64,000 bases of DNA from Achromobacter dolens (GTDB lineage Bacteria; Pseudomonadota; Gammaproteobacteria; Burkholderiales; Burkholderiaceae_B). The translations under genes were made by a program, and so were the position numbers. Where the stretch lies: the NCBI RefSeq assembly GCF_902859745.1, contig NZ_CADIJW010000006.1, positions 124,001 through 188,000 on the forward strand, written 5' to 3'. This document shows, one piece after another, positions 23,380-36,003 of this stretch (the stretch's first letter is position 1; each line of letters starts with the position of its first letter). Below the pieces are notes generated by a model. The model had not been told where the DNA came from, did not search any database, and worked only from the letters and a program-made list of their open reading frames with translations.

Positions 23380-23579
23380 TCTCGCTGCGCGCCGTATTGT
23401 GGCTCCTGTCGGCGGGCGTGCTGGTGTTCCTGCTGATGCGCACGCCCGGCGTGCGGCTCTATGACGCCATTGCCCGCCGCCTGCGCGGCCGGCGGGCCGG
23501 CCAGGCGCCGCGCGATCCGCGCCCGCAGGGCAAGGGCGCCCAGGCCCGGCGCGCCAGCCAGGCGCGTCAGCCGGGGTAG
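23376..23579 (+). CDS. Small membrane protein, hypothetical
   Basis: The 67-residue product has one N-terminal transmembrane helix (about 5-22: AVLWLLSAGVLVFLLM) and a strongly basic tail rich in Arg, Gln and Ala. I recognise no family. Its ATG overlaps the DUF4105 stop (ATGA), so it is likely translated by coupling. It overlaps the convergent YoaK-family gene by 13 bp. The basic cytoplasmic tail may stabilise or recruit the DUF4105 protein, which is a guess from position. Confidence 0.6.
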   Translation: MISLRAVLWLLSAGVLVFLLMRTPGVRLYDAIARRLRGRRAGQAPRDPRPQGKGAQARRASQARQPG

Positions 23580-24268
23580 GGCCGCGCCAGCGCCTGTCCC
23601 GCCAGCGACACCAGCGGCGGCAGCACGAACGCCCACAATCCGATCGACACGTGCAATAGCGCCGCCGCGCCGCAACCGATCGCGAACGCCAGCACAGCCC
23701 GTCCCATGCGCCCCATGCGGCGCTTGACCGCTTCGTCGGCCTGGCCGCGCGCGGCGTCCGCCAGGTCCAGCATGATCTGCGTGGTGGTGCCAGTCATCAG
23801 CGTCGAGGGCGGCGCCGCGCCCAGGTGGACGCGGTGCACCGCGTTCTGGATCGACATCGCCAGCACCAGCGTCATGCCGGTGGCGAACAGCCCCCAGCTA
23901 TCACCCATCGGAAACGGCCCCAGCGCCAGGGCCAGCGCGGCCGCCACGCACAGCAGCAGCGTCTTGGCCGTGAGCAACCGCATGAACGCCGGCTTGCCCG
24001 CGTCGCGTCGCGCCTGGCCATACAGGCGCGCCAGGAACACGCCCAGGCAAAACATCGGCAGGGCCGCCAGCTTGGTCCAGGCGCCCGAGGCGCCGTTGCC
24101 GAGCGCGTAGCCGATGGTGACGAAGTTGCCCGTCACGTGCGCGGAAAACAGGCCGTGCAGCGCGATGAACCCCAGGGTGTCGACGTAGCCCGCGTTCAGG
24201 CTCAGCAGCAGCGGCAGGCGTTCGCCAGCGGGGGCGGCAGGGGGAGCGGCGGTGGCGGGCGCGGGCAT
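23567..24268 (-). CDS. YoaK/DUF1275 family membrane protein
   Basis: The 233-residue protein has about six hydrophobic segments and the DUF1275 blocks NAGYVDTLGFIALHGLFSAH, VTGNFVTIG and STLMTGTTTQIMLDL. Family function is unknown, probably small-molecule transport. The ATG at 24268 has a GGAA sequence upstream. It is convergent with the MarC-DUF4105 operon. Confidence 0.9.
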   Translation of the reverse strand: MPAPATAAPPAAPAGERLPLLLSLNAGYVDTLGFIALHGLFSAHVTGNFVTIGYALGNGASGAWTKLAALPMFCLGVFLARLYGQARRDAGKPAFMRLLTAKTLLLCVAAALALALGPFPMGDSWGLFATGMTLVLAMSIQNAVHRVHLGAAPPSTLMTGTTTQIMLDLADAARGQADEAVKRRMGRMGRAVLAFAIGCGAAALLHVSIGLWAFVLPPLVSLAGQALARPYPG

Positions 24269-24391
24269 CGGTGTTCCATCCGGGTGACGGCAGAGTGCCT
24301 ACCGTTGTATCGCAGTTGCGGCGTTCACGCACGCAGGACGATGTTCCGATGACGCCGGTGATGCGCTCGGTCCGGCGATGGCGCGGGGCGT

Positions 24392-25156
24392 TCAGAACCA
24401 GTACTTCGCCGCATAGATCACGGTCATGGCGGCGCCCGTGACGATCACGAACGCCCGGATGGCCGAAGCCGGCAGGACGCGTATCAAGTGGCCGCCCAGG
24501 TAGCCGCCCGCCAGCGCGCCGGCCAGCATGCATAGCGTGGCCGGCCAATGCACCGAACCCTGCACGATGAAGATGACGATTGCCGCGGCGGTGACAAATG
24601 TGGCCAGCAGGTTTTTCAGCGATTTGATGGCGCGCAGGTTTCCGGGATCCGTGATGGAAATCACCGCGGTCAGGATCACGCCCAGCCCGGCGCCGAAAAA
24701 ACCGCCATACACGGAGGCCAGCGCGATCGGCAGCACGCCGCGCGCGGGGCCGTCCTGCGCCTGGCCGCCGCGTCGGCGCGCGCTCCAGGCCTGCACCTGG
24801 GGCGCAAAGGCGAACAGCAGGGTGGCGAACGCGATCAGGGCCGGCACGGGCAGGATGAAATAGGCGGGGGGAATGGCAAGCAGGATGAATGCGCCCAGCG
24901 CGCCGCCCGCGGTGGTGGCGATGGATAACAGCCAGAAGCGCCGATCGGGAGCGGGCAGATTTTCACGATCCGCCAGCGCCGCGAGGATATGGCCGGGTGA
25001 GATGGCGACCGCGCTGGAGGCATTGGCGATGACGGGCGGCAGGCCCGCCGCCACCATCGCGGGAAAGGTAATCAATGTGGCGCCGCCCGCCAGCGCATTG
25101 ATGACGCCGCCCAGCGTGCCCGCGCCGGCCAGCAGTGCCGCGATGGTCCACTCCAT
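24392..25156 (-). CDS. TauE/SafE-family permease
   Basis: The 254-residue protein has about eight hydrophobic segments and the TauE/SafE repeats (GGVINALAGGATLITFPAMV in the first half, FFGAGLGVILTAVI in the second). The family exports sulfite, sulfoacetate and other small organic or inorganic anions. The ATG at 25156 has AGAGG seven bases upstream; a GTG at 25162 is the alternative. It is divergent from the biosynthetic operon at 25497. A TGGTCCA palindrome overlaps its likely -10 box, so it may export that operon's product. Confidence 0.88.
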   Translation of the reverse strand: MEWTIAALLAGAGTLGGVINALAGGATLITFPAMVAAGLPPVIANASSAVAISPGHILAALADRENLPAPDRRFWLLSIATTAGGALGAFILLAIPPAYFILPVPALIAFATLLFAFAPQVQAWSARRRGGQAQDGPARGVLPIALASVYGGFFGAGLGVILTAVISITDPGNLRAIKSLKNLLATFVTAAAIVIFIVQGSVHWPATLCMLAGALAGGYLGGHLIRVLPASAIRAFVIVTGAAMTVIYAAKYWF

Positions 25157-25185
25157 GCCCACACCTCTTCGTTAAACAATGTTTA

Positions 25186-25204
25186 TGGTCCATATAATGG
25201 ACCA
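25186..25204. promoter_or_regulatory. Operator 1: TGGTCCAT-N3-ATGGACCA
   Basis: Perfect 8-base arms around ATA. On the minus strand TTTCAC (25219-25214) and TATATG (25196-25191) form a 17-bp-spaced promoter for the TauE-type gene, and this palindrome covers its -10 box. It shares the TGGTCCA half-site with operator 2. Confidence 0.72.
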
Positions 25205-25226
25205 AAATATCGGGTGAAATTTATTA

Positions 25227-25254
25227 TTGCCTATTTTCTGCGTGGGTATAGAAT
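25227..25254 (+). promoter_or_regulatory. Promoter of the biosynthetic operon
   Basis: TTGCCT (25227-25232) and TAGAAT (25249-25254) are separated by 16 bp and point toward the methyltransferase gene. Operator 2 begins about 24 bp downstream of the -10 box, where a bound repressor would block elongation or initiation. Confidence 0.5.
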
Positions 25255-25277
25255 GCTCGAAAATTAAACAATAAATA

Positions 25278-25298
25278 ATGGTCCAATATATGGACCAT
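25278..25298. promoter_or_regulatory. Operator 2: ATGGTCCA-N5-TGGACCAT
   Basis: Perfect 8-base arms around ATATA, with the same TGGTCCA half-site as operator 1, about 90 bp away. It lies just downstream of the predicted operon promoter. No regulator gene is adjacent, so the binding protein must be encoded elsewhere. Confidence 0.72.
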
Positions 25299-25496
25299 AT
25301 TGAAACTCCGGCGACGCCTTTTAGCCGCCCCCGCAAGATCGCTGTCACTCCCCAGGATGGCGCATGCGGCCGGATCTGCATCGGCTTTGCGTGTATCCCG
25401 TCCTGATCGCTGGTTTCCAACTCCGTCCCCGGAGTTGTTGCGTGTTCACCTGTCTGGCCCTGCGGGCCATCACCGTTGAATCAGGAGGGAATCTCG

Positions 25497-26486
25497 ATGG
25501 ATGTGAGCTTCATGGCGTTTTCCCGGTTGGCATTCGGGCATTGGGAGGGGCAACCCTTGTATGCCCTGGCCGATCTGGGGATTGCCCAGCGTTTGACCGA
25601 ACCCCGTACCTGCGCCGAGCTGGCTCGGGAAATCGGTTGCGAATCCGAGCCGCTGGAACGCTTGCTGGACTGCGCGGTCGCGCAAAAGCTGCTGGCATGC
25701 GACGGCGAGCGCTACGCCAATACCGATCTCAGTGCGCGTTTCCTCACCGAGGACAGCCCCGAATCCCTGTTGTGCTGGCTGCGCGTCATGGCGCGCTGGA
25801 AACAGCCCTGGACGCAACTGGCCGAGGCGGTGCGGCGAGGCGAGGCGGTGGACAACCAATCCAAGTGGCTGGGCGAGGACCCCCAGTTCATGCGCGATTT
25901 CATCCTCGGCATGCACCAGTTCGCGTCCCGTTCCGGCCCCGCGTTCGCGCAGGCCCTGCAAGACGTGCCCATTCGCCATCTGGTGGATGTGGGCGGGGGC
26001 GCGGGCACGTATTCGATTGCCTTGTGCGCGGCGCGGCCCGATGTAACCGCGCAGGTTCTGGATCTGGCGCCGGTTGTCGAGATCACGCGCGAAACCGTGC
26101 GCGCAGCCGGCCTGGCGGACCGCGTGAGCGCCAAGGTGGCCGATTATCGGCAGGACGGCTTTGGCGAGGCGGCCGACGCGCTGCTTTTTTCGAACGTGCT
26201 GCATCAGGAGAGCGCGCAGGTGTGCCGATCGATGCTGGACCGCGCAAGGCAGGCATTGCGCCCGGGCGGAACCTTGCTGGTGCAAGGCTACTTCCTTGCC
26301 GAGGGCCGGCGCGCGCCGTTGTTCACCACCTTGCACAACCTGTCCGCGCTGGCGCTGTGGGACGGCGGGCGCAGTTGGACGGTGGGCGACATGCAGGCGC
26401 GGATCGCGGGTGCGGGGTTTGAGCGCCAGGCCGTGCTGCGCCAGGAGAGCAGCGGGTTCTGCCTGCTGTCGGCCGTCAAGGTCTGA
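25497..26486 (+). CDS. SAM-dependent O-methyltransferase, first gene of the biosynthetic operon
   Basis: The 329-residue protein follows the Methyltransf_2 layout: an N-terminal winged-helix dimerisation domain (about 10-100) and a Rossmann SAM domain with motif I VDVGGGAG at 163-170. A His in SNVLHQE sits where the catalytic base of small-molecule O-methyltransferases is usually found, although the common HDWxD motif is not kept. A strong AGGAGGG precedes the ATG at 25497. It leads a run of seven close or overlapping genes and may methylate a hydroxyl, N-hydroxyl or aci-nitro oxygen of the product. Confidence 0.88.
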   Translation: MDVSFMAFSRLAFGHWEGQPLYALADLGIAQRLTEPRTCAELAREIGCESEPLERLLDCAVAQKLLACDGERYANTDLSARFLTEDSPESLLCWLRVMARWKQPWTQLAEAVRRGEAVDNQSKWLGEDPQFMRDFILGMHQFASRSGPAFAQALQDVPIRHLVDVGGGAGTYSIALCAARPDVTAQVLDLAPVVEITRETVRAAGLADRVSAKVADYRQDGFGEAADALLFSNVLHQESAQVCRSMLDRARQALRPGGTLLVQGYFLAEGRRAPLFTTLHNLSALALWDGGRSWTVGDMQARIAGAGFERQAVLRQESSGFCLLSAVKV

Positions 26487-26517
26487 CGCGTTATCCACCT
26501 ATTGAACCGGAGTCCCT

Positions 26518-26766
26518 ATGTCCACACAGACCGTCACCGATACCGAAGCCGAAGTGATCGCCTGGCTGAAGGAAAACCGCAATGCGCAGGTCGAAGGCAT
26601 CAAGGAGAAGAACCTGATCGAAGAGCGCATCCTGGACAGCATGCAGTTCCTGGATTTCATCATGTTCCTGGGCGAACTGGTCGGGCGTGATGTCTCGACC
26701 GCCATCACCGTCGACGACCTGCGCACGGTGGATGCCATCGTCAACTTCGTCCAGGCACAGCGCTAG
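26518..26766 (+). CDS. Stand-alone acyl/aminoacyl carrier protein
   Basis: The 82-residue acidic protein has the carrier-protein pattern with the phosphopantetheine Ser41 in ILDSMQFLDFIMFLGE, followed by helix III (TVDDLRTVDAIVNFV). It is not the housekeeping AcpP: the attachment motif is DSM rather than DSLD and no fab genes adjoin it. Size and setting match carrier proteins charged by amino acid:[carrier protein] ligases, one of which is encoded three genes on. It sits 31 bp after the methyltransferase gene. A PPTase ends the operon. Confidence 0.9.
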   Translation: MSTQTVTDTEAEVIAWLKENRNAQVEGIKEKNLIEERILDSMQFLDFIMFLGELVGRDVSTAITVDDLRTVDAIVNFVQAQR

Positions 26767-26785
26767 GCCGAGCGAGGAGCGCACC

Positions 26786-27679
26786 ATGACATTCGACTAC
26801 TCAAGAATCGAACGCCTGAAGACGCTATCCAAGGGGCGTTCGCATGATCCCTACGAGCGTTTCGAGTGGCCCGCCCGTATCCCGGATGACCAGCCCTGGT
26901 GCAGCAATGACTTGCTCACCACCTATGGAACGCCCTTGCAGGAGCAATTGGACGCCGCGCAGCAGATACGGCTCAGCAAGTGGGAGGCGGTCAATTTCTT
27001 CAGCCTGAACGTGCATGGCATCAAAGGGGTGCTGGGCTTTGTCAGCCGCTGCATCTATGAAGAGCGCTATGCCGATGTCTCCGAATACCTGCATGTCTTC
27101 ATGGGCGAAGAGAACTTCCATATGTGGTATTTCGCCAAGGCCTGCCTGGATTATGCGGGAAAGATATATCCATCCATTCAGTTGCAGGGCGATGCGCAGG
27201 CCGCCACGCCAGAGTTGGACGACTTGTACATGTTCGCCAGCACGCTGATCTTCGAGGAGTTTGTCGACTACTACAACCATAAGGTCGGCACCACGGACGG
27301 CATCACCGAGATCCTCAAGCAGATCAACTACCAGCACCATGTCGATGAGTCCCGCCACGTGTCCTTCGGCCGGGAAATGGTGCCGCGCCTGTATCGGCTG
27401 GCCTTGGAGCGCAGCGGCGATCCCGACGCGACGCGGGCGGAGGTGGCGCGCACGGTAACGAATATGTTCCGGTACTTCATCAGCCTGATGTACAACCCCG
27501 CCGTCTATGACGATGCCAAGGTCTACGAGCCGCTGGGGTTTCGCAACGGCAACGCCATGCGCAACGCGCTGCGGTCGCATCCGGCGCGCAAGGCCATCCA
27601 CGAGCAATGGTTCAAGCGTAGCGCCGCCTACTTCACCAAACAGGGGCTGGTGACGGACTTGAATCTGGCTGCGCTATAG
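26786..27679 (+). CDS. AurF-like non-haem diiron oxygenase
   Basis: The 297-residue helical protein has the ligand pattern of AurF/CmlI N-oxygenases: Glu67, then E109-x-x-H112 (GEENFHMW), a Glu at 157 or 158 (LIFEEFVDYY), and H184-x3-E188-x2-H191 (HHVDESRH). The extra His in the last motif is the hallmark of the AurF family. AurF and CmlI oxidise an amine to hydroxylamine, nitroso and nitro; CmlI does so on a carrier- or precursor-linked amine. GAGGAG lies six bases before the ATG at 26786. Beside an aminoacyl-carrier system, the tethered amino group is the likely substrate (inference). Confidence 0.85.
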   Translation: MTFDYSRIERLKTLSKGRSHDPYERFEWPARIPDDQPWCSNDLLTTYGTPLQEQLDAAQQIRLSKWEAVNFFSLNVHGIKGVLGFVSRCIYEERYADVSEYLHVFMGEENFHMWYFAKACLDYAGKIYPSIQLQGDAQAATPELDDLYMFASTLIFEEFVDYYNHKVGTTDGITEILKQINYQHHVDESRHVSFGREMVPRLYRLALERSGDPDATRAEVARTVTNMFRYFISLMYNPAVYDDAKVYEPLGFRNGNAMRNALRSHPARKAIHEQWFKRSAAYFTKQGLVTDLNLAAL

Positions 27680-27692
27680 GCGGAGGTTCACC

Positions 27693-28649
27693 ATGGCGCG
27701 GATTGCCAGCAGTCCCGAGGTGGAGGCGTTTTTTGGCGCGTGCTTGCCTGTCCTGCAGGCCGGCATGGGCGGCGTGGCGCAGCCGGAACTGGCGGCCGCC
27801 GTGTGCGAGGCGGGCGCGTTCGGCATGATAGGCCTGTATCGCCACACGCTCGACGAGATCGGCGCGTTGCTTGCGCGCACGGCCCAACTGACCCGCGCGC
27901 GCTTCGGCGTGAATCTGGTGCCCTTCGTACTGGACGCGGACGCGTTGCTGGAGCGGCTCGCCTTTCTGGCGGACCGTCCGGAGCGGCCGGTCGTGACCTT
28001 CTTCGGCCTGCCGGATGCCCCCGTGCTGCGGGCCTTGCCGGCCGGCATGGAATATGGCGTGCAAGGCGGGACCTGGGACGAGCTGGAAGCGGGGTTCGAT
28101 GCCGGCGCGCGCTTTGGCGTGTTGCAGACGACGGAGGCGGGCGGCCATCACCTGGGCTCGACCGCGCGCGGACAGGCGCTGGACCAGGCCGGCCGTCATG
28201 GCGTCGACAGGCGCATGGTGTTTCTAAGCGGCGGCATCAGCAACGCGGCGGAGTTGCGCCAGGTGGTGCAGGCCGGATTTTCCGGCGCGCTGTGCGGCAC
28301 CGTATTCGCGGCCACCCGGGAGTCCGCCGCGCACGAGCGCTACAAGCAGGCGATCGTGAACGCCACGCCCGGCGATACCGTGGTCACCGACCGCTTCAGC
28401 ATCGGCTGGCACACCCATCGCCACCGGGTTATCCGCAATGCCAGTTGCGAGCAATCGCTGCCGGCCAGTGTCATCGGTTCCGCGCATTACTTTGGCAAGC
28501 GTTATCCCATCCTGCGTTACAGCGTTGCGGTACCCACCGTGCACACCGAGGGTTTGATCGAGGAAATGGCGTTGTATTGCGGCACGTCCTGCAAGGACAC
28601 GCATTCCATCCGAACCGTCCGCCAGGTGCTGGCTGACCTGACGGCGTAA
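27693..28649 (+). CDS. Nitronate monooxygenase/FabK-family FMN enzyme
   Basis: The 318-residue TIM-barrel protein has the family blocks PVLQAGMGGVAQPELAAAV, RFGVNLVPF, a TTEAGGHH loop (about 146-153, holding the catalytic His of nitronate monooxygenases) and the FMN-phosphate region FLSGGISNAAEL...LCGTVFAATRES. Members oxidise alkyl nitronates or reduce enoyl thioesters. With an AurF-like N-oxygenase in the same operon, a nitro/nitronate intermediate is a natural substrate, or the enzyme may detoxify it. GGAGG lies six bases before the ATG. It starts 13 bp after the diiron gene. Confidence 0.88.
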   Translation: MARIASSPEVEAFFGACLPVLQAGMGGVAQPELAAAVCEAGAFGMIGLYRHTLDEIGALLARTAQLTRARFGVNLVPFVLDADALLERLAFLADRPERPVVTFFGLPDAPVLRALPAGMEYGVQGGTWDELEAGFDAGARFGVLQTTEAGGHHLGSTARGQALDQAGRHGVDRRMVFLSGGISNAAELRQVVQAGFSGALCGTVFAATRESAAHERYKQAIVNATPGDTVVTDRFSIGWHTHRHRVIRNASCEQSLPASVIGSAHYFGKRYPILRYSVAVPTVHTEGLIEEMALYCGTSCKDTHSIRTVRQVLADLTA

Positions 28650-28707
28650 GGCCGGGTCGTGCATGCATTCACTCAAGTGCTTTCAGGGATTTTCAGGAGA
28701 TTGAATC

Positions 28708-29493
28708 GTGATTATCGAAAAGCAATGGCACCAGGTAAAGAACGTGCTGCAGGCCAAACTGGACGACATATTCTCGATTGCGCCCGACGCCACCACCGAG
28801 TTCGACAGCTTGCTGGCCCATGAAGAGATCAATGCGCTGGGTTACGTGCGCAATTTCCCGCACCTGACCTGCGTCATGTGCTCGATAGAAAAGGGCGAGT
28901 TGCTGGGGTTCGCGCGCGGCCAGCGCAAGCTGGACCAGGATTTCAAGGCGCTTTGCGCCGACGTGGCGCTGTTGCCGGCCACCTGCTACAAGGTCTACCT
29001 GGGGCTGCAAGGGCAGCACCTCGAAGACGCGCGGGTGGAGTCCTGCATCGCGCGCTGCTTCCGGCACGAGGACAAGGCGCTGGATCGTTACCGCGCTTTC
29101 AACTTCACCATGAAGGAATACGTGTACCTGGGCACCGCGCAGGGCGCGCAGGCGCACCTGGAAGCGGGGTACGACCGCCTGTTCTCCCTGTTCGCGCAAC
29201 TTGGGATCAGCGCGGGTTGTGAAGAAGCCAACGATCCCTTCTTTGATTCCGGCAGCGCCGTGGCGCGCCTGTCGGCGCTGACGCCCACCAAGCGTGAGCT
29301 GGTGTTCGACGGCCACGCCGTGTCGTCGCTGAACTATCACCGCAACTACTTCGGAGAAAAGTTCGATATCCGCCTGGCCGACAGCTTCGTGCATACCAGT
29401 TGTGTCGCGTTTGGGCTGGAGCGATGGATCTCCATGTTCAAGGATCGTTTCGGCAATGCGGCGGATGCGCTCGCCGCGCTGGAGCGCGCCTAG
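28708..29493 (+). CDS. Amino acid:[carrier protein] ligase (truncated class II seryl-tRNA-synthetase homologue)
   Basis: The 261-residue protein is a class II synthetase catalytic domain without a tRNA-binding arm. A motif 2-like segment is CIARCFRHED (113-122) followed by RAFNFTMKEYVYLGT (129-143), and motif 3 is FGLER (235-239). Cys93, Glu137 and Cys232 fit the Zn ligands of archaeal-type SerRS and the Bradyrhizobium aa:CP ligases, which adenylate glycine or alanine and load it onto a carrier protein. It is shorter than those ligases (about 320). The start is a GTG with CAGGAGA seven bases upstream. The ACP at 26518 is its expected partner. Confidence 0.8.
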   Translation: MIIEKQWHQVKNVLQAKLDDIFSIAPDATTEFDSLLAHEEINALGYVRNFPHLTCVMCSIEKGELLGFARGQRKLDQDFKALCADVALLPATCYKVYLGLQGQHLEDARVESCIARCFRHEDKALDRYRAFNFTMKEYVYLGTAQGAQAHLEAGYDRLFSLFAQLGISAGCEEANDPFFDSGSAVARLSALTPTKRELVFDGHAVSSLNYHRNYFGEKFDIRLADSFVHTSCVAFGLERWISMFKDRFGNAADALAALERA

Positions 29494-29877
29494 ATGGATG
29501 GCCCGACGCTACAGGCGCAGGCGCTGTTCGAGACGGGACAGCAGTTCACGAAAACCTGCATGGTCGATGCCGCCGCAAGCGCATTGAACTATGGAGGAGA
29601 TCGGGATGTGCTGGCCACCCCGGTGATTGTCTATTGGATCGAGTCTTACGCGACCGAGTGCATCCGGCTGGCGGGCGACGGGCGCTGCGGGTCGGTCGGG
29701 CATGCGGTCAGCGTGCGCCACGTTGCGCCCGCGCACCCAGGCAGCGCGGTGCGGCTGACGATCACGGTGGAGGCGATGTTCGGCCATTCCCTGCGGTTCA
29801 GCGCCCGCGCCGTGGCGGGCGAGGCCGACACCCTGATCGCGACCGGCACGCATGACCGCACCCTCGTCGAACTTTGA
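29494..29877 (+). CDS. FlK-type hot-dog thioesterase
   Basis: The 127-residue protein aligns along its whole length with fluoroacetyl-CoA thioesterase FlK. The catalytic residues fall at the same numbers: Thr42 (LATPVIV), Glu50 (YWIESYA) and His76 (VRHVAPAHPG), with a closing GTHDR block. FlK hydrolyses thioesters of acyl groups that carry a strongly electron-withdrawing alpha substituent. The ATG directly follows the ligase TAG with no gap. It is expected to release or edit the acyl group on the operon's carrier protein. No fluorine gene is nearby. Confidence 0.83.
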   Translation: MDGPTLQAQALFETGQQFTKTCMVDAAASALNYGGDRDVLATPVIVYWIESYATECIRLAGDGRCGSVGHAVSVRHVAPAHPGSAVRLTITVEAMFGHSLRFSARAVAGEADTLIATGTHDRTLVEL

Positions 29878-30511
29878 TGTCACGGTAGTGCTGGGCCGTC
29901 CCGATCCGGTGCTGGTCGGGCGGGCCGCGCGCGCCCCGATCCTGCGCACCCGGTTAGGCAAGCCGTACCTTCCCGGCCTTGCCGGTTTCGGCGTGAGCCA
30001 CAGTGCCGGCGTGCAGGCGCGGCTATATGCCAATCGCAAGTATGTGGGCATTGATATCGAGCATCTGGACCGGCCCGATCTGGCCGCCCGCCAACGCCGC
30101 CTGGCGGCTTGGCTGGCGCGGCGGGACCTCGTCGTGGTGGACTTCCTGGTCGGCTGGGTCGCCCGCGAGGCTTGCGCAAAAAGCGTGGGGCTGGGGCTGC
30201 TGCACGCGCTGCCGCGCTTGTCCATCGCCTGGGCCCGGCCTTGCGGCCAGGACGGGGCGCAAGAAATCGGCCTGGTATTGAGCCGCTGGCGATTCGTCGC
30301 GCGGTGCGAGCGTGTCGGCAGGGTGCTGCTATGCGTGGGTTACCGGGAGGAATATGGCAAGCCCGCCATATCCTTGCTGCAGCCCGGCCTTGGCGCAGCC
30401 GGCGCCGTGGCCGGTAGTCCCGTGGTCGGTAGTCCCGTGGCCGGCAGCCCAACGGCCGCCAGCCTTTCAGTCGTGGGTACTGGCCGGATCCTGGGCGCTG
30501 GCCGGAAATAG
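29852..30511 (+). CDS. 4'-phosphopantetheinyl transferase, Sfp-like
   Basis: The 219-residue protein has the PPTase blocks GKPYLP, FGVSHSAG, VGIDIE (65-70) and W102-x2-REACAK (105-110), where an Arg replaces the first Lys of the usual KEA-K motif. It transfers the phosphopantetheine arm from CoA to a carrier-protein Ser, presumably Ser41 of the ACP in this operon. It overlaps the FlK gene by 26 bp; no clear ribosome site is visible, so coupling is likely. The last 45 residues are unusual for the family and include three copies of a five-residue repeat (V-A/V-G-S-P). Confidence 0.85.
   Translation: MTAPSSNFDVTVVLGRPDPVLVGRAARAPILRTRLGKPYLPGLAGFGVSHSAGVQARLYANRKYVGIDIEHLDRPDLAARQRRLAAWLARRDLVVVDFLVGWVAREACAKSVGLGLLHALPRLSIAWARPCGQDGAQEIGLVLSRWRFVARCERVGRVLLCVGYREEYGKPAISLLQPGLGAAGAVAGSPVVGSPVAGSPTAASLSVVGTGRILGAGRK
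30407..30451 (+). repeat. Three tandem 15-bp repeats in the PPTase tail
   Basis: Three in-frame units (30407-30421, 30422-30436, 30437-30451) related to GTGGCCGGTAGTCCC encode VAGSP, VVGSP and VAGSP. The first two differ at one base, the third at three. Such a repeat can change copy number by slippage without breaking the frame. Confidence 0.8.
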
Positions 30512-30588: not shown

Positions 30589-30664
<76 letters not shown>

Positions 30665-31612: not shown

Positions 31613-31924
31613 CTAGGCCGGATGCTTGGCCTGGACGACGAGACGCACGCCCAATGCCTTGCATACCTTGGCGATGGTGTCAAAGCGCGGGCTCGCGCCG
31701 GCGCGCAGGGCCTTGTATAGCGATTCTCGGCCAATGCCAGTCGTCTCGGCAATTTGCGTCATGCCACGAGCGCGCGCGGCAACTCCCAGCGCCTGGGCAA
31801 GCTCACTGAAGTCTCCGTCCTCGATCACCTGCGTCAAGTAGGCGGCGATGTCCTTGTCGTCGCGCAGGTAACGCGCGGGGTCGAAGGTGGGCAGTTCGGA
31901 AACCTTGATCGTTTTCTTGCTCAT
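31613..31924 (-). CDS. Antitoxin, XRE-type (HigA-like addiction module antidote)
   Basis: The 103-residue protein has an N-terminal extension (PTFDPARYLRDDKDIAAYL) and an XRE helix-turn-helix (ARGMTQIAETTGIGRESLYKALRA, then GASPRFDTIAKVCKALG). This is the DNA-binding antidote type that pairs with RelE-fold killers. It begins inside the toxin stop (ATGA overlap), so toxin is translated first, the HigBA order. It should neutralise the toxin and repress the shared promoter. Confidence 0.9.
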   Translation of the reverse strand: MSKKTIKVSELPTFDPARYLRDDKDIAAYLTQVIEDGDFSELAQALGVAARARGMTQIAETTGIGRESLYKALRAGASPRFDTIAKVCKALGVRLVVQAKHPA

Positions 31925-32417: not shown

Positions 32418-32661
32418 CAACGGAAGCAGTGAGTTTTGGCGAGTCGTCCCTTCTGGGCGTCCGAAACCGTGGGAAGCGTTGACGGGCAGCGCTTCACGCA
32501 TGGTTCACTCCTTTCTGTAATTTGCGCGAACAGAAGGCGGGTTCCGTTCAAACCGGAAAGCCACCGCATCCGTATAAATTATTATCAATTTGTATAATTT
32601 AAAGAACGCCAATATCCGACTTTTATCGGAAGTTCCGCAGTCCTCAAAAGAGAACAAAACA
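32260..32661. other. 402-bp gap before the helicase gene
   Basis: Apart from the toxin-antitoxin promoter and the possible remnant at the left, this holds an AT-rich stretch at about 32570-32650 that probably contains the helicase promoter. A TATAAT-like TATAAATTATTATC run starts at about 32573. No hairpin or repeat was seen. Confidence 0.5.
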
Positions 32662-35600
32662 ATGGCAGAACAACAGCAGGGCCGGCAGCCTGCGATATCT
32701 CAAGCCCCGCGAATATTAGGGTTCTGGCGCGCCGTCGAGGCGTGCGTCCCGCAAAAGGCCGAGAAAGCCAATCCCTCCCACCTCACCGAGCCTGTCTACC
32801 GGTTGCGCGCGGACGAGTCCTTGCCCTGGTTCGATCCAAAACACCGGGCCAAACGCATTGCGCCGCGCCTTGCCTGGCGCTACACGCTGCAGGCGGGGCT
32901 CTACGAGATCGAGCGGTTTGCGGCATTGCTGGAAGTCAAGGTTGGTTCGCACGAGGATGTATTCGACGAGCGCCGCCCCAGTGGCCAAGGCCGCCTCTTT
33001 GACCTGGCTTTCGACGAAGACGGCTATCCTCTGCCACAGAGTTTTGTGCTGTCCCTGGCATGTTGGGCTGCAGGGCAGATCCTGCATTACCCTGACGGCA
33101 TCGCGGTGCTGGAAGAGGGCGGCAGGATCGTCGCCGCCGGCTTGCCAGAGGCCAATCCCGAGATCCCGAGCCCGAACAGCGGCTATGCGGGCTTCGACAT
33201 GCTGGTCCGCCGGCTTATGCAGTGGCTCGTCGGCGCCACGGCCGCGGCGCGAGAGAAAAAAGCGCCGCCCACCCGTGCCTGGCTCGATGCGTTGAGCGGG
33301 CGCATTGCCGCCCTTTGTCTACTGCCCGAGGGGATGATCTCCTCGACCCACGCCGCCAAATGCGTCCAGGTCAAGAGAGCCGACGCGACGGGAGATCAGG
33401 GCACGTCCGATCCCCAGCCGGGCGATGATCTGCTGAATAGTTTCTTTGTGGGCGATCTCAACGCGCTGCGCCGAGCCTGGGTCGATGGCAATGTCGGGAA
33501 AGGGCTGGCCGAATATATCCAGGCGGCGGCAAAGGTGGATCCTGCGCGCGTGGATATGCGCGAGGCTCATGGAGTGGCGACTGCCTTCGCGGCGTTGAAT
33601 CCTCCGGCTTTTCCTGCGGGAAGTTGGCCTTCGGATCATCCGCTTGCGTTCAGCCAGCAACTGGCCGTCAACGAACTGTGGCGCCAGCTCGAAGCCAAGC
33701 CTGGAATTTTTGCGATCAATGGACCGCCGGGCACGGGCAAGACCACCTTGCTACGCGATGTGGTGGCGGCGGTTGTCACTGCGCGCGCGGCGCACCTTGC
33801 CCGGTTGGGAGGGCAGGCCTTTGCCGGGCGGACGACAAAGAAACTGGGTGAATTCTGGTGCAACTATCGACCGTTGCACGCTGACCTGAGCGGGTTCGCC
33901 ATCGTTGTGGCCTCGGCCAACAACGGCGCGGTGGAGAACATTTCGCTGGAACTGCCTGGCGTCAAGGCCGTACCCGCCGATGCGGCCGGGCGCAGTGCGC
34001 ATCCGGATGGTTATTACCAGTGCCTGGCCGGCAACGTCCTGGGCAATGCCGCCTGGGGCCTCCTGGCCGCGCGCATGGGATCGAAGGCCAACCGTGGCGC
34101 GTTCATGAACAGCTTCTGGTGGAAGAATCCCCCTGGCGTCCATTCCAGGAAAAATCAGCCGGACGCGCAAGACGATCCCACGCAAGCGGCGCTTCTGGCT
34201 CGATGGGACGCCAATCCCTTTGTCGAGGGCGGGGAAGGGCTGCGCTATCACCTGAGCCGGATCATCGACGGCGGACGCAAGCCGGTGATCGGTTGGGCAC
34301 AGGCCGTGGCCCGGTTCGAACAGGCGCAGGAGGCCGAACGTCAATGCCGAAGCGTCTTGGAGGCGAACGCGAAACTTCCGGAGGCCGTCGCCAAGGCGCG
34401 CGCCCAGGCCGAGGAACTAGAGCGTGGCGCGCGAGCTATCGAGGTCGAACTCGCGGCGCGACAGGCCGCGCTGCCGACGCTACGGGAGCGCGTCGACGAC
34501 CTGCAAGCGCGGATGGCCGGCGCGCTTAAGCAGTGTGCGGCGGCACAAGCTGAATTGGCCAGCCACGATCGGGCCAGGCCTGGATTGCTGATCTGGCTTT
34601 CGACCTGGGGACGCTCGCACCGGGATTGGTGGAACAGACGCAGCCAGATCGATGCTCAAGTCAGGCAATCCAGGGCCGATCACGATGCCCTGGCCGCGGA
34701 GTGCAAGAAGGCCAAGGCGGCTCATCAGGATGCGGCCGGTGGGGACGAGAAGCTTAGGACAGCCTTGCGGCAAAAGCAGGTCGCTCATCAGGAGGCATTG
34801 GACCGGCTTGACGCTGCCAGGCATGCATGTCTGCAGGCAATGCAACGCTTGGGGGCGTACTGGCCGCAATCCAGCGCCGATGACGCCGCCCGCGAATTGT
34901 CTTCGCCCTGGTCAACGCCGGCTTGGCGCCGCGCGCGGCAAGATCTGTTTCTGGCCGGATTGGATGTGCATCGCGCTTTCATCGAGTCACATCCCCAGGA
35001 GATCATCGACAACCTTGGCTTGGCCTCGAACTGGCTCCAAGGTAAGGGCATGCCTGAAGACATGGCGCGGGTGGCGCTCGGTAGCCTCGCGCTCGTGGTG
35101 CCGGTGATTTCCACGACCTTTGCCTCGATTCCTCGCATGTTCCATTCGCTTGGCCGGGAGTCGATCGGCTGGCTTTTGATCGACGAAGCCGGCCAGGCGC
35201 TGCCACAACAGGCCGCCGGCGCCATTTGGCGCTCGGCGCGCACCGTCGTGGTGGGCGATCCCAACCAGCTTGAACCCGTGCTGGGCATGCCGGCGGCGGT
35301 CGAGGGCGCACTGGCTCGGCACTATGAAGTACCTCGGGATTGGTGGCCCAGCTTCACATCGGCGCAGTGCCTGTCGGATCAGAGCATGTCGATGGGGACC
35401 TGGCTGCCTGGCAAGGAGAACGGGAAAGTCTGGGTCGGTTCGCCTCTGCGTGTGCACCGCCGTTGCGATGATCCGATGTTCTCCATCAGCAACGACATTG
35501 CTTATGACGGGCTGATGGTTCAAGGGAAATCGCCGTCCGCCCATTCGTGGCCGCATTGCCATTGGATCGACGTACGCGCGCAAACCAGTGTGGGCAATTG

Positions 35601-36003
35601 GGTACCCGAGGAGGGGGAGGCTGCCAGGAAGTTATTGCGGTCGTTGCAAGCTGAGCACCAGGTCGCGCCCAAGGACATTTTCCTGATCTCGCCGTTCAAG
35701 GATGCGGCGACGCAACTGCGCGCGATGGCCCGGATGCTGGGACTCGATCCTGCCAAGACCGGGACGGTGCACACGACCCAGGGCAAGGAGGCCGAAATCG
35801 TTATCCTGGTGCTGGGCGGCAACCCGCAGCGCCCGGGGGCCAAGGATTGGGCTGCGCAAAGCCCCAACCTGCTCAATGTGGCGGTCAGCCGGGCCAAGGC
35901 CCGGCTGTATGTGATCGGCGATCGTGCCGCTTGGGGCCAACGCCCCTATTTCCGCGTTCTTGACCAGCGCCTTGGTATCGGCAGCGAGCCGCCCTCGCAT
36001 TAA
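32662..36003 (+). CDS. Large SF1 (Upf1-like) helicase / AAA ATPase with coiled-coil insert
   Basis: The 1,113-residue protein has a unique N-terminal region (1-330), Walker A GPPGTGKTT at about 354, Walker B DEAGQ at about 841, a GDPNQLEPV motif, TTQGKEAEIVIL at about 1037 and NVAVSRAKARLYVIGD near 1075. These are SF1 AAA_11/AAA_12 helicase motifs. Between the Walker motifs lies a roughly 480-residue insert with a long Ala/Glu/Arg coiled coil (about 555-640). Start is the ATG at 32662; a TTG at 32590 is open but less likely. Codon use is less GC-biased than neighbours and it follows a toxin-antitoxin pair. It is probably acquired, and a defence role is possible. Confidence 0.85.
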   Translation: MAEQQQGRQPAISQAPRILGFWRAVEACVPQKAEKANPSHLTEPVYRLRADESLPWFDPKHRAKRIAPRLAWRYTLQAGLYEIERFAALLEVKVGSHEDVFDERRPSGQGRLFDLAFDEDGYPLPQSFVLSLACWAAGQILHYPDGIAVLEEGGRIVAAGLPEANPEIPSPNSGYAGFDMLVRRLMQWLVGATAAAREKKAPPTRAWLDALSGRIAALCLLPEGMISSTHAAKCVQVKRADATGDQGTSDPQPGDDLLNSFFVGDLNALRRAWVDGNVGKGLAEYIQAAAKVDPARVDMREAHGVATAFAALNPPAFPAGSWPSDHPLAFSQQLAVNELWRQLEAKPGIFAINGPPGTGKTTLLRDVVAAVVTARAAHLARLGGQAFAGRTTKKLGEFWCNYRPLHADLSGFAIVVASANNGAVENISLELPGVKAVPADAAGRSAHPDGYYQCLAGNVLGNAAWGLLAARMGSKANRGAFMNSFWWKNPPGVHSRKNQPDAQDDPTQAALLARWDANPFVEGGEGLRYHLSRIIDGGRKPVIGWAQAVARFEQAQEAERQCRSVLEANAKLPEAVAKARAQAEELERGARAIEVELAARQAALPTLRERVDDLQARMAGALKQCAAAQAELASHDRARPGLLIWLSTWGRSHRDWWNRRSQIDAQVRQSRADHDALAAECKKAKAAHQDAAGGDEKLRTALRQKQVAHQEALDRLDAARHACLQAMQRLGAYWPQSSADDAARELSSPWSTPAWRRARQDLFLAGLDVHRAFIESHPQEIIDNLGLASNWLQGKGMPEDMARVALGSLALVVPVISTTFASIPRMFHSLGRESIGWLLIDEAGQALPQQAAGAIWRSARTVVVGDPNQLEPVLGMPAAVEGALARHYEVPRDWWPSFTSAQCLSDQSMSMGTWLPGKENGKVWVGSPLRVHRRCDDPMFSISNDIAYDGLMVQGKSPSAHSWPHCHWIDVRAQTSVGNWVPEEGEAARKLLRSLQAEHQVAPKDIFLISPFKDAATQLRAMARMLGLDPAKTGTVHTTQGKEAEIVILVLGGNPQRPGAKDWAAQSPNLLNVAVSRAKARLYVIGDRAAWGQRPYFRVLDQRLGIGSEPPSH

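Follow-up and report, generated by a model that had tools for sequence, protein, structure and literature searches.

The chemistry closest to that of the genes studied here is found in the enteromycin class of natural products (enteromycin carboxamide, akazaoxime/A-76356), for which the accessible text of PMC9967187 names glycine, a carrier protein, a diiron oxygenase and a nitronate O-methyltransferase; a second branch, denitrification, appears in the title of a paper in its reference list (He and Ryan, 2021, Nat Chem 13:599). Here we describe a compact unit from Achromobacter dolens with chemistry of this known kind and with an unusual loader, release step and export. The window, by which we mean the whole 64,000-nucleotide stretch that was analyzed (assembly GCF_902859745.1, contig NZ_CADIJW010000006.1, positions 124,001 to 188,000 of the forward strand), carries seven plus-strand genes at 25497-30511, encoding an O-methyltransferase (OMT), an acyl carrier protein (ACP), an AurF-type diiron oxygenase, a flavoenzyme of the nitronate monooxygenase (NMO) family, an amino acid:carrier-protein ligase, an FlK-type thioesterase and a 4'-phosphopantetheinyl transferase (PPTase). 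A divergent gene for a TauE/SafE exporter is the eighth member of the unit (Table 1).

On balance we lean towards reading this unit as a horizontally moving operon, complete in itself, whose product is a small N-oxygenated acid for export. Comparison of sequences establishes its gene content, the intactness of its catalytic residues, the co-conservation of its parts and the mobility of the unit. The original prediction, made from the letters of this stretch, had named seven genes of these families on one strand, with gaps of at most 58 bp and two junctions without a gap or with an overlap; open reading frames and family matches agree with it, the gaps along the operon being 31, 19, 13, 58, 0 and -26 bp. 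Its outline, in which an amino acid bound to the ACP is N-oxygenated, possibly O-methylated and then released, fits the gene content, and it missed the exporter and the mobility.

Results

A distinct ligase branch beside an AurF-type oxygenase

No nonribosomal peptide synthetase (NRPS) adenylation domain is found among the genes of 24392-30511, and the ligase occupies the loader position; more generally, the unit's genes include no NRPS or polyketide synthase (PKS). The ligase matches PDB 3mey/4h2w at about 4e-20 and the amino acid--[ACP] ligase model NF005479 at 118.9 of the 357 bits required (117.9 bits in the genome-wide search). Its zinc residues C93, E137 and C232, which from the PDB match we take to be C131, E176 and C279 of Bll0957, are invariant in 19/19 aligned rows, as are R119, E121 and R239 of the ATP/class II motif. 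In a tree of sequences that do not include Bll0957, a 100/100 branch splits 10 AurF-linked ligases from 8 ordinary amino acid:carrier-protein ligases. The ligase of Streptomyces clavuligerus, which has an ACP and a PPTase nearby and no AurF, falls on the AurF-linked side, so this group is not strictly tied to AurF. An NF005479 search of 398 Burkholderiales genomes finds the ligase in 10, above the cut-off in eight and below it in two (the window genome and G015). Both ligases below the cut-off have an adjacent AurF and ACP, and none of the eight loci above it shows another cassette family (AurF, NMO, OMT or a similar ACP) in the 13.9-18 kb fetched. To our knowledge the cellular job of amino acid:carrier-protein ligases is still open.

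In the AurF-type oxygenase, the six metal ligands and a seventh histidine (E67, E109, H112, E157, H184, E188 and H191, counted from the methionine at 26786) are invariant in 14/14 rows, and in the ligand list in the accessible part of PMC12154687 the seventh histidine marks N-oxygenases among ferritin-like diiron enzymes. The metal sites of ligase and diiron protein, on which the original prediction had staked its reading, thus have intact ligands by alignment. A profile of the AurF group, searched against PDB, returned no AurF or CmlI among matches at E up to 1 (best E 0.027), so the kinship of the group is drawn from Pfam and the metal motif. The AurF tree, whose deep branches are long, places the NRPS-linked Azospirillum enzyme inside the window group (95/100) and does not separate NRPS-loaded from ligase-loaded kinds. 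This grouping points to one oxygenase type served by two kinds of loader.

The gene set recurs in other bacteria

As the original prediction required, the genes are co-conserved elsewhere: the set turns up again, in places incomplete or rearranged, in Variovorax, Agrobacterium vitis, Tistrella and Streptomyces. In Variovorax sp. N23, TauE precedes the identical seven-gene order, the seven proteins being 39-68% identical to ours and TauE 65%; because the whole order is kept at such divergence, the operon arrangement is not a chance one. The A. vitis F2/5 plasmid carries ACP, AurF, NMO, ligase, FlK, PPTase and TauE in one row without this OMT, and the window's TauE/SafE protein is 34-36% identical to the gene directly downstream of that cassette. 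Tistrella pTM2 has AurF, ACP, ligase, NMO and OMT, with an FlK-family protein (PF22636, 1.2e-20) 2.2 kb upstream on the opposite strand, and Streptomyces NBC_01431 has AurF, ACP, ligase, NMO, an alpha/beta hydrolase and PPTase, again without this OMT. The AurF-ACP-ligase triad occurs without NMO in Streptomyces NBC_00335 (beside ketosynthase/chain-length factor genes), in another Burkholderiales genome (beside KASIII-type and AMP-binding genes) and at a second site in one Achromobacter (L027).

Among 13 loci with AurF plus ligase, a sample biased by its selection for AurF or ligase similarity, ACP is present in 12, PPTase in 10, NMO in nine, FlK in eight, and OMT and TauE in seven each; the count excludes a TauE-like match that lies at the margin of L027, some 7 kb off and on the opposite strand. 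Three records are outside the 13: L023, which repeats the A. vitis F2/5 plasmid, and two in which AurF was not found, L022 of A. vitis VAR06-30 and L017 of S. clavuligerus. Since members of these loci seeded the cassette hidden Markov models (HMMs), the E-values of those models are circular for them. Evidence independent of the seeded HMMs comes from the Achromobacter nucleotide comparison, the NCBIfam ligase search, the NMO and OMT plasmid searches, pairwise BLAST, and the scan of the eight ordinary ligase loci, which supplied no seeds.

With the AurF group as query, three matches appear in 399 Burkholderiales genomes, two of them with the ligase, while the third, on a 10.8-kb contig, shows none there. 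A phylum-wide search returned only two genomes already known (2/398), and a small repeat (1/11) added none. In 72,556 plasmid records, through which alone actinomycetes were covered, nine matches were found: five with the ligase (four distinct plasmids, A. vitis F2/5 appearing twice), two with NRPS genes (Azospirillum and Nostoc), and two distant ones, in Photobacterium and Rhodococcus (24-25% identity), whose 8.8 kb of fetched sequence holds no cassette gene.

Three of these loci show features of their own. Downstream of the Variovorax N23 cassette and on its strand (L005, 13600-18472) lie open reading frames that resemble, by eye, a fatty acyl-AMP ligase, a fatty acid desaturase and a major facilitator superfamily transporter. 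In A. vitis VAR06-30 (L022, 8554-9794) the ligase homology is split across two frames, NMO is matched only in part and AurF was not found, which suggests a damaged cassette in that record. On S. clavuligerus pSCL4 (L017, 3424-11020) a condensation-domain protein and a phytanoyl-CoA dioxygenase are encoded near the ligase, an ACP-like protein and a PPTase.

Putative enzymes of two branches, with a carrier and a probable release enzyme

We searched the plasmid records with the NMO-family protein and with OMT, taking the best 12 of 31 and of 19 records, respectively. The top four NMO records are AurF-ligase cassettes on three distinct plasmids (43-48% identity, E 8e-74 to 4e-39); the next record by rank stands at 6e-31, and the others among the 12 listed reach 4e-32 at best and at most 38% identity. 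For OMT, the top record is the methyltransferase of the Tistrella cassette (51.5%, 2e-100), the next by rank is 32.3% identical, and the best other among the 12 listed has 1e-33. The operon holds the putative enzymes of both branches, OMT and NMO, each with its top-ranked plasmid relatives in such cassettes, an arrangement that needs explaining. The GGH152 motif of the NMO-family protein is invariant in the 5/5 cassette proteins aligned. We also asked whether the window OMT is closely related to the methyltransferase of the enteromycin pathway. The sole proxy, Azospirillum, whose likeness to the enteromycin class is deduced from its gene list, does not support this: the methyltransferase beside its AurF belongs to PF04072 (LCM-type), a family unrelated to the window OMT.

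The ACP keeps Ser41 in 8/8 aligned proteins. The FlK-type thioesterase scores 69.2 bits against the PF22636 cut-off of 27 and matches the FlK structure 3p3f at 5.7e-4; its T42, E50 and H76 are in register with what we take to be the FlK Thr/Glu/His triad. Family scans of the unit's genes gave no hint of fluorine metabolism. The PPTase reaches 21.7 of the 25 bits of PF01648. Its conserved part ends near 30384, and its repetitive C-terminal tail (30370-30511; GSPVVGSPVAGSP) is variable: the protein has 214 residues in A. ruhlandii and 173 in A. insuavis and A. pulmonis, where it ends before the tail and the nucleotide match stops at 30384. We accept the ligase, PPTase and ACP calls despite model matches that are weak or below cut-off because conserved residues or synteny back each of them.

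Table 1. The eight genes of the unit and the control region between the exporter gene and the operon (positions in the window; best family or structure match with E-value).
Feature	Coordinates	Strand	Match
TauE/SafE family membrane exporter (predicted)	24392..25162	-	PF01925 2.7e-34
Intergenic control region, GC 0.49, with two inverted repeats	25163..25496		
S-adenosylmethionine O-methyltransferase, Methyltransf_2 type, 329 aa	25497..26486	+	PF00891 4.8e-24
Free-standing acyl/aminoacyl carrier protein, 82 aa, Ser41 in LDSM	26518..26766	+	NF003757 1.9e-4, below cut-off
AurF-type ferritin-like diiron oxygenase, 297 aa, putative N-oxygenase	26786..27679	+	PF11583 9e-27
NMO/FabK-superfamily flavin mononucleotide (FMN) enzyme, 318 aa, probable nitronate monooxygenase	27693..28649	+	PF03060 4.9e-25
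Class II aminoacyl-tRNA synthetase (aaRS)-like amino acid:carrier-protein ligase, 261 aa, GTG start	28708..29493	+	NF005479 2.1e-34, below cut-off; PDB 3mey/4h2w
FlK-type hotdog thioesterase, 127 aa, T42/E50/H76	29494..29877	+	PF22636 3.8e-19
4'-Phosphopantetheinyl transferase	29852..30511	+	PF01648 2.1e-4, below cut-off

The unit moves between Achromobacter genomes

We compared 19-21 kb per locus between Achromobacter genomes, using nucleotide matches longer than 150 bp. The loci closest to the window are those of A. ruhlandii (L002), A. insuavis (L003) and A. pulmonis (L004), and together with a further Achromobacter (L026) all of them hold all eight genes. Both flanks are common to the window, A. 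ruhlandii and A. insuavis, while A. pulmonis matches the window solely at 24377-30384 and L026 solely at 24394-30308. The DNA that moves therefore comprises the divergent TauE/SafE gene and the seven-gene operon. We reject the DUF1275 gene (23567-24268) as a member, since the DNA common to the window, A. pulmonis and L026 does not reach it.

The ligase is present in 5/43 Achromobacter genomes searched, the window's own included, and xth, the gene of the right flank, in 42/43. At 6/6 other sites fetched the unit is missing between the flanks (four from genomes without the unit, two from genomes with the unit elsewhere), and in one Achromobacter (G409) the site is empty, with the flanks 88 bp apart next to tRNA-Ala. 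GC content is 0.61-0.65 across 24-36 kb and 0.66-0.73 in the rest of the window. From these sequence patterns we judge that the unit is mobile and moves horizontally.

Some features around the unit are worth recording. A tRNA-Ala (cgc) gene at 30589-30664 adjoins it, and at 5/6 of the other Achromobacter sites the tRNA is separated from the last left-flank match by 0.9 to 3.7 kb unlike the window, which may be other cargo or DNA that has diverged. Further right are a large superfamily 1 helicase-like protein (AAA_11/AAA_12; 32590-36003), with a PADLOC match of 2.2e-64 to MkoC, presumably the Mokosh component, and beside it an HI1420-type antidote gene (31613-31924); this stretch is missing at this site in A. 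ruhlandii and present in A. insuavis. The interval separating TauE from the operon holds two 19-bp inverted repeats, TGGTCCA-N5-TGGACCA, with perfect 7-bp arms (25186-25204 and 25279-25297, 93 bp apart). Both are intact in the window and in A. ruhlandii; A. insuavis has half-sites only (two), as does L026 (one), and A. pulmonis has none. There is no regulator among the unit's eight genes.

Discussion

The gene content suggests a simple order of events. The PPTase would arm the ACP, and the ligase would activate a small amino acid, most likely glycine, as its adenylate and load it onto the ACP. The AurF-type enzyme could then oxidize the carrier-bound amine to a nitro group, whose acidic alpha-hydrogen would make the nitronate accessible, and OMT would cap this nitronate as its O-methyl ester. 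The thioesterase, whose family is suited to small acyl thioesters bearing an electron-withdrawing group at the alpha position, would free the acid and TauE/SafE would carry it out, while the NMO-family enzyme might remove or divert uncapped nitronate to glyoxylyl or glyoxylate plus nitrite. We infer the glycine substrate, the six-electron oxidation, the methylation site, the role of NMO and the final product from the families involved, and we favor O-methylation as the productive branch with NMO as a safety valve. More tentatively, and with clearly less confidence than in the outline above, we suggest that the unit may be a first among natural-product routes, with an N-oxygenase supplied by a tRNA-synthetase-derived ligase in place of an NRPS. 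Such a mobile kit, minimal at eight genes, would take glycine to exported free O-methyl nitronate (or methoxyimino) acetic acid and would give this branch of amino acid:carrier-protein ligases a physiological role.

Several observations weigh against this pathway. Not every part seems essential, since OMT and TauE are each found in 7/13, FlK in 8/13 and NMO in 9/13 of the AurF-plus-ligase loci, and in Salinarimonas AurF and ligase were found but the ACP was not. A. vitis VAR06-30 has cassette genes yet no AurF match in the 11 kb fetched, and the 17-kb stretch around the S. clavuligerus pSCL4 ligase holds no AurF. The ligase family is reported with specificity for alanine as well as for glycine. 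Because the methyltransferase beside the related Azospirillum AurF is of an unrelated family, the window OMT is only putative as a nitronate O-methyltransferase. The NMO-family protein matches NMO (8.7e-16) and FabK (1e-15) structures equally. Finally, the spacing of the diiron motif agrees with the list in the accessible part of PMC12154687 save for the first interval, E67-E109, which is 42 in the window and 36 in the list.

How, then, should alternative uses of the same genes be weighed? An oxidative denitrification operon is one, in our view an unlikely one: NMO would perform the main step after AurF to give glyoxylyl-ACP and nitrite, FlK would free glyoxylate, and OMT would have some other target. 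This would suit the greater frequency of NMO over OMT among the 13 loci, the cassettes of A. vitis F2/5 and Streptomyces NBC_01431 with NMO and without this OMT, and the second branch in the title of He and Ryan (2021). It sits less well with the 51.5% identity of OMT to the Tistrella cassette gene, by which OMT is kept with NMO across bacterial classes, and it would seem wasteful to keep an exporter and a thioesterase just for glyoxylate and nitrite. The NMO-family protein might instead be an FMN reductase that converts a nitro or nitronate carrier to the oxime, OMT then giving a methoxyimino-acetyl product, although we think this very unlikely. The Pfam NMO family may include FabK, and comparison with structures, Pfam and TIGR03151 did not separate NMO from a FabK reductase: besides the equal structural matches, the FabK model TIGR03151 is hit, though below cut-off (66.1 of 453.1 bits), and the best Pfam family is nevertheless NMO. 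In the accessible text of PMC9967187 the enteromycin class has an aldoxime besides the O-methyl nitronic acid, which would favor a reductase, but the aldoxime route proposed there names none.

It is also quite unlikely, as we see it, that the substrate is alanine or another small amino acid, or that the diiron enzyme oxidizes carbon and not nitrogen. The ligase specificity noted above would allow the former; against the alternative as a whole stand the invariance of the seventh histidine, the grouping of the window AurF with an NRPS-linked AurF, and the co-occurring NMO family, which acts on nitronates. In favor of carbon oxidation, the accessible part of PMC12154687 assigns C-H chemistry to ferritin-like diiron enzymes too. 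The role of FlK and TauE could be self-protection, through hydrolysis of a toxic CoA ester and efflux, in place of pathway steps, which we regard as improbable. FlK does give fluoroacetate resistance by hydrolyzing fluoroacetyl-CoA; here, however, its gene lies directly against that of the ligase and overlaps that of the PPTase, and the unit has no other release enzyme.

Gene order and phylogeny now link one branch of amino acid:carrier-protein ligases with an N-oxygenase, a carrier and a release enzyme, which turns its role into a five-protein question in vitro. Nitronates are uncommon and reactive, as are their O-methyl esters. A compact NRPS-free kit, if true, would offer a convenient way of making such groups, and might account for a metabolite in some strains of Achromobacter, Variovorax and Agrobacterium.

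Comparison with known systems

The original prediction knew of no described pathway that has this set and lacks an NRPS or PKS. A literature search that reached few subscription journals found no description of the ligase-AurF gene set, and the unit has no NRPS or PKS. The prediction missed, however, that the chemistry of a glycine nitronate on a carrier is already published for enteromycin (He and Ryan, 2021). What looks new is the NRPS-free loader, the joint presence in one operon of putative enzymes for both branches, release by FlK and the exporter. Related cryptic cassettes are said, in the abstract of the denitrification study, to carry out denitrification, and these may already include ligase-loaded ones.

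Part by part, the enzymes resemble known ones with particular departures. With Bll0957-type amino acid:[carrier protein] ligases (PDB 3mey, 4h2w) the window ligase shares the class II SerRS-like family, the zinc ligands and the ATP motifs, but it is shorter, stands apart from eight ordinary Burkholderiales ligases at 100/100 and below the NF005479 cut-off, and lies beside AurF. The thioesterase shares PF22636 and the T42/E50/H76 register with the fluoroacetyl-CoA thioesterase FlK; its substrate is probably ACP-bound instead, in a unit whose genes bear no mark of fluorine metabolism. PF11583 and the metal motif are common to the window oxygenase and AurF, CmlI and Alb2, although the substrates of AurF and CmlI are aryl amines. 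PvfB is a carrier-acting AurF relative. Alb2, of althiomycin, is likewise proposed to act on a carrier-bound intermediate in the accessible text of PMC3445576.

The enteromycin class, as far as the accessible text of PMC9967187 describes it, shares with the window unit glycine (inferred here) on a carrier protein, an AurF-type diiron oxygenase and an O-methyltransferase; on our side, the alignment places an oxygenase with an intact metal site beside a carrier protein. There an NRPS loads the glycine and the product is a larger NRPS/PKS molecule, whereas the window unit has an aaRS-like ligase and a free ACP with no NRPS or PKS, and adds a possible denitrifying NMO beside the OMT.

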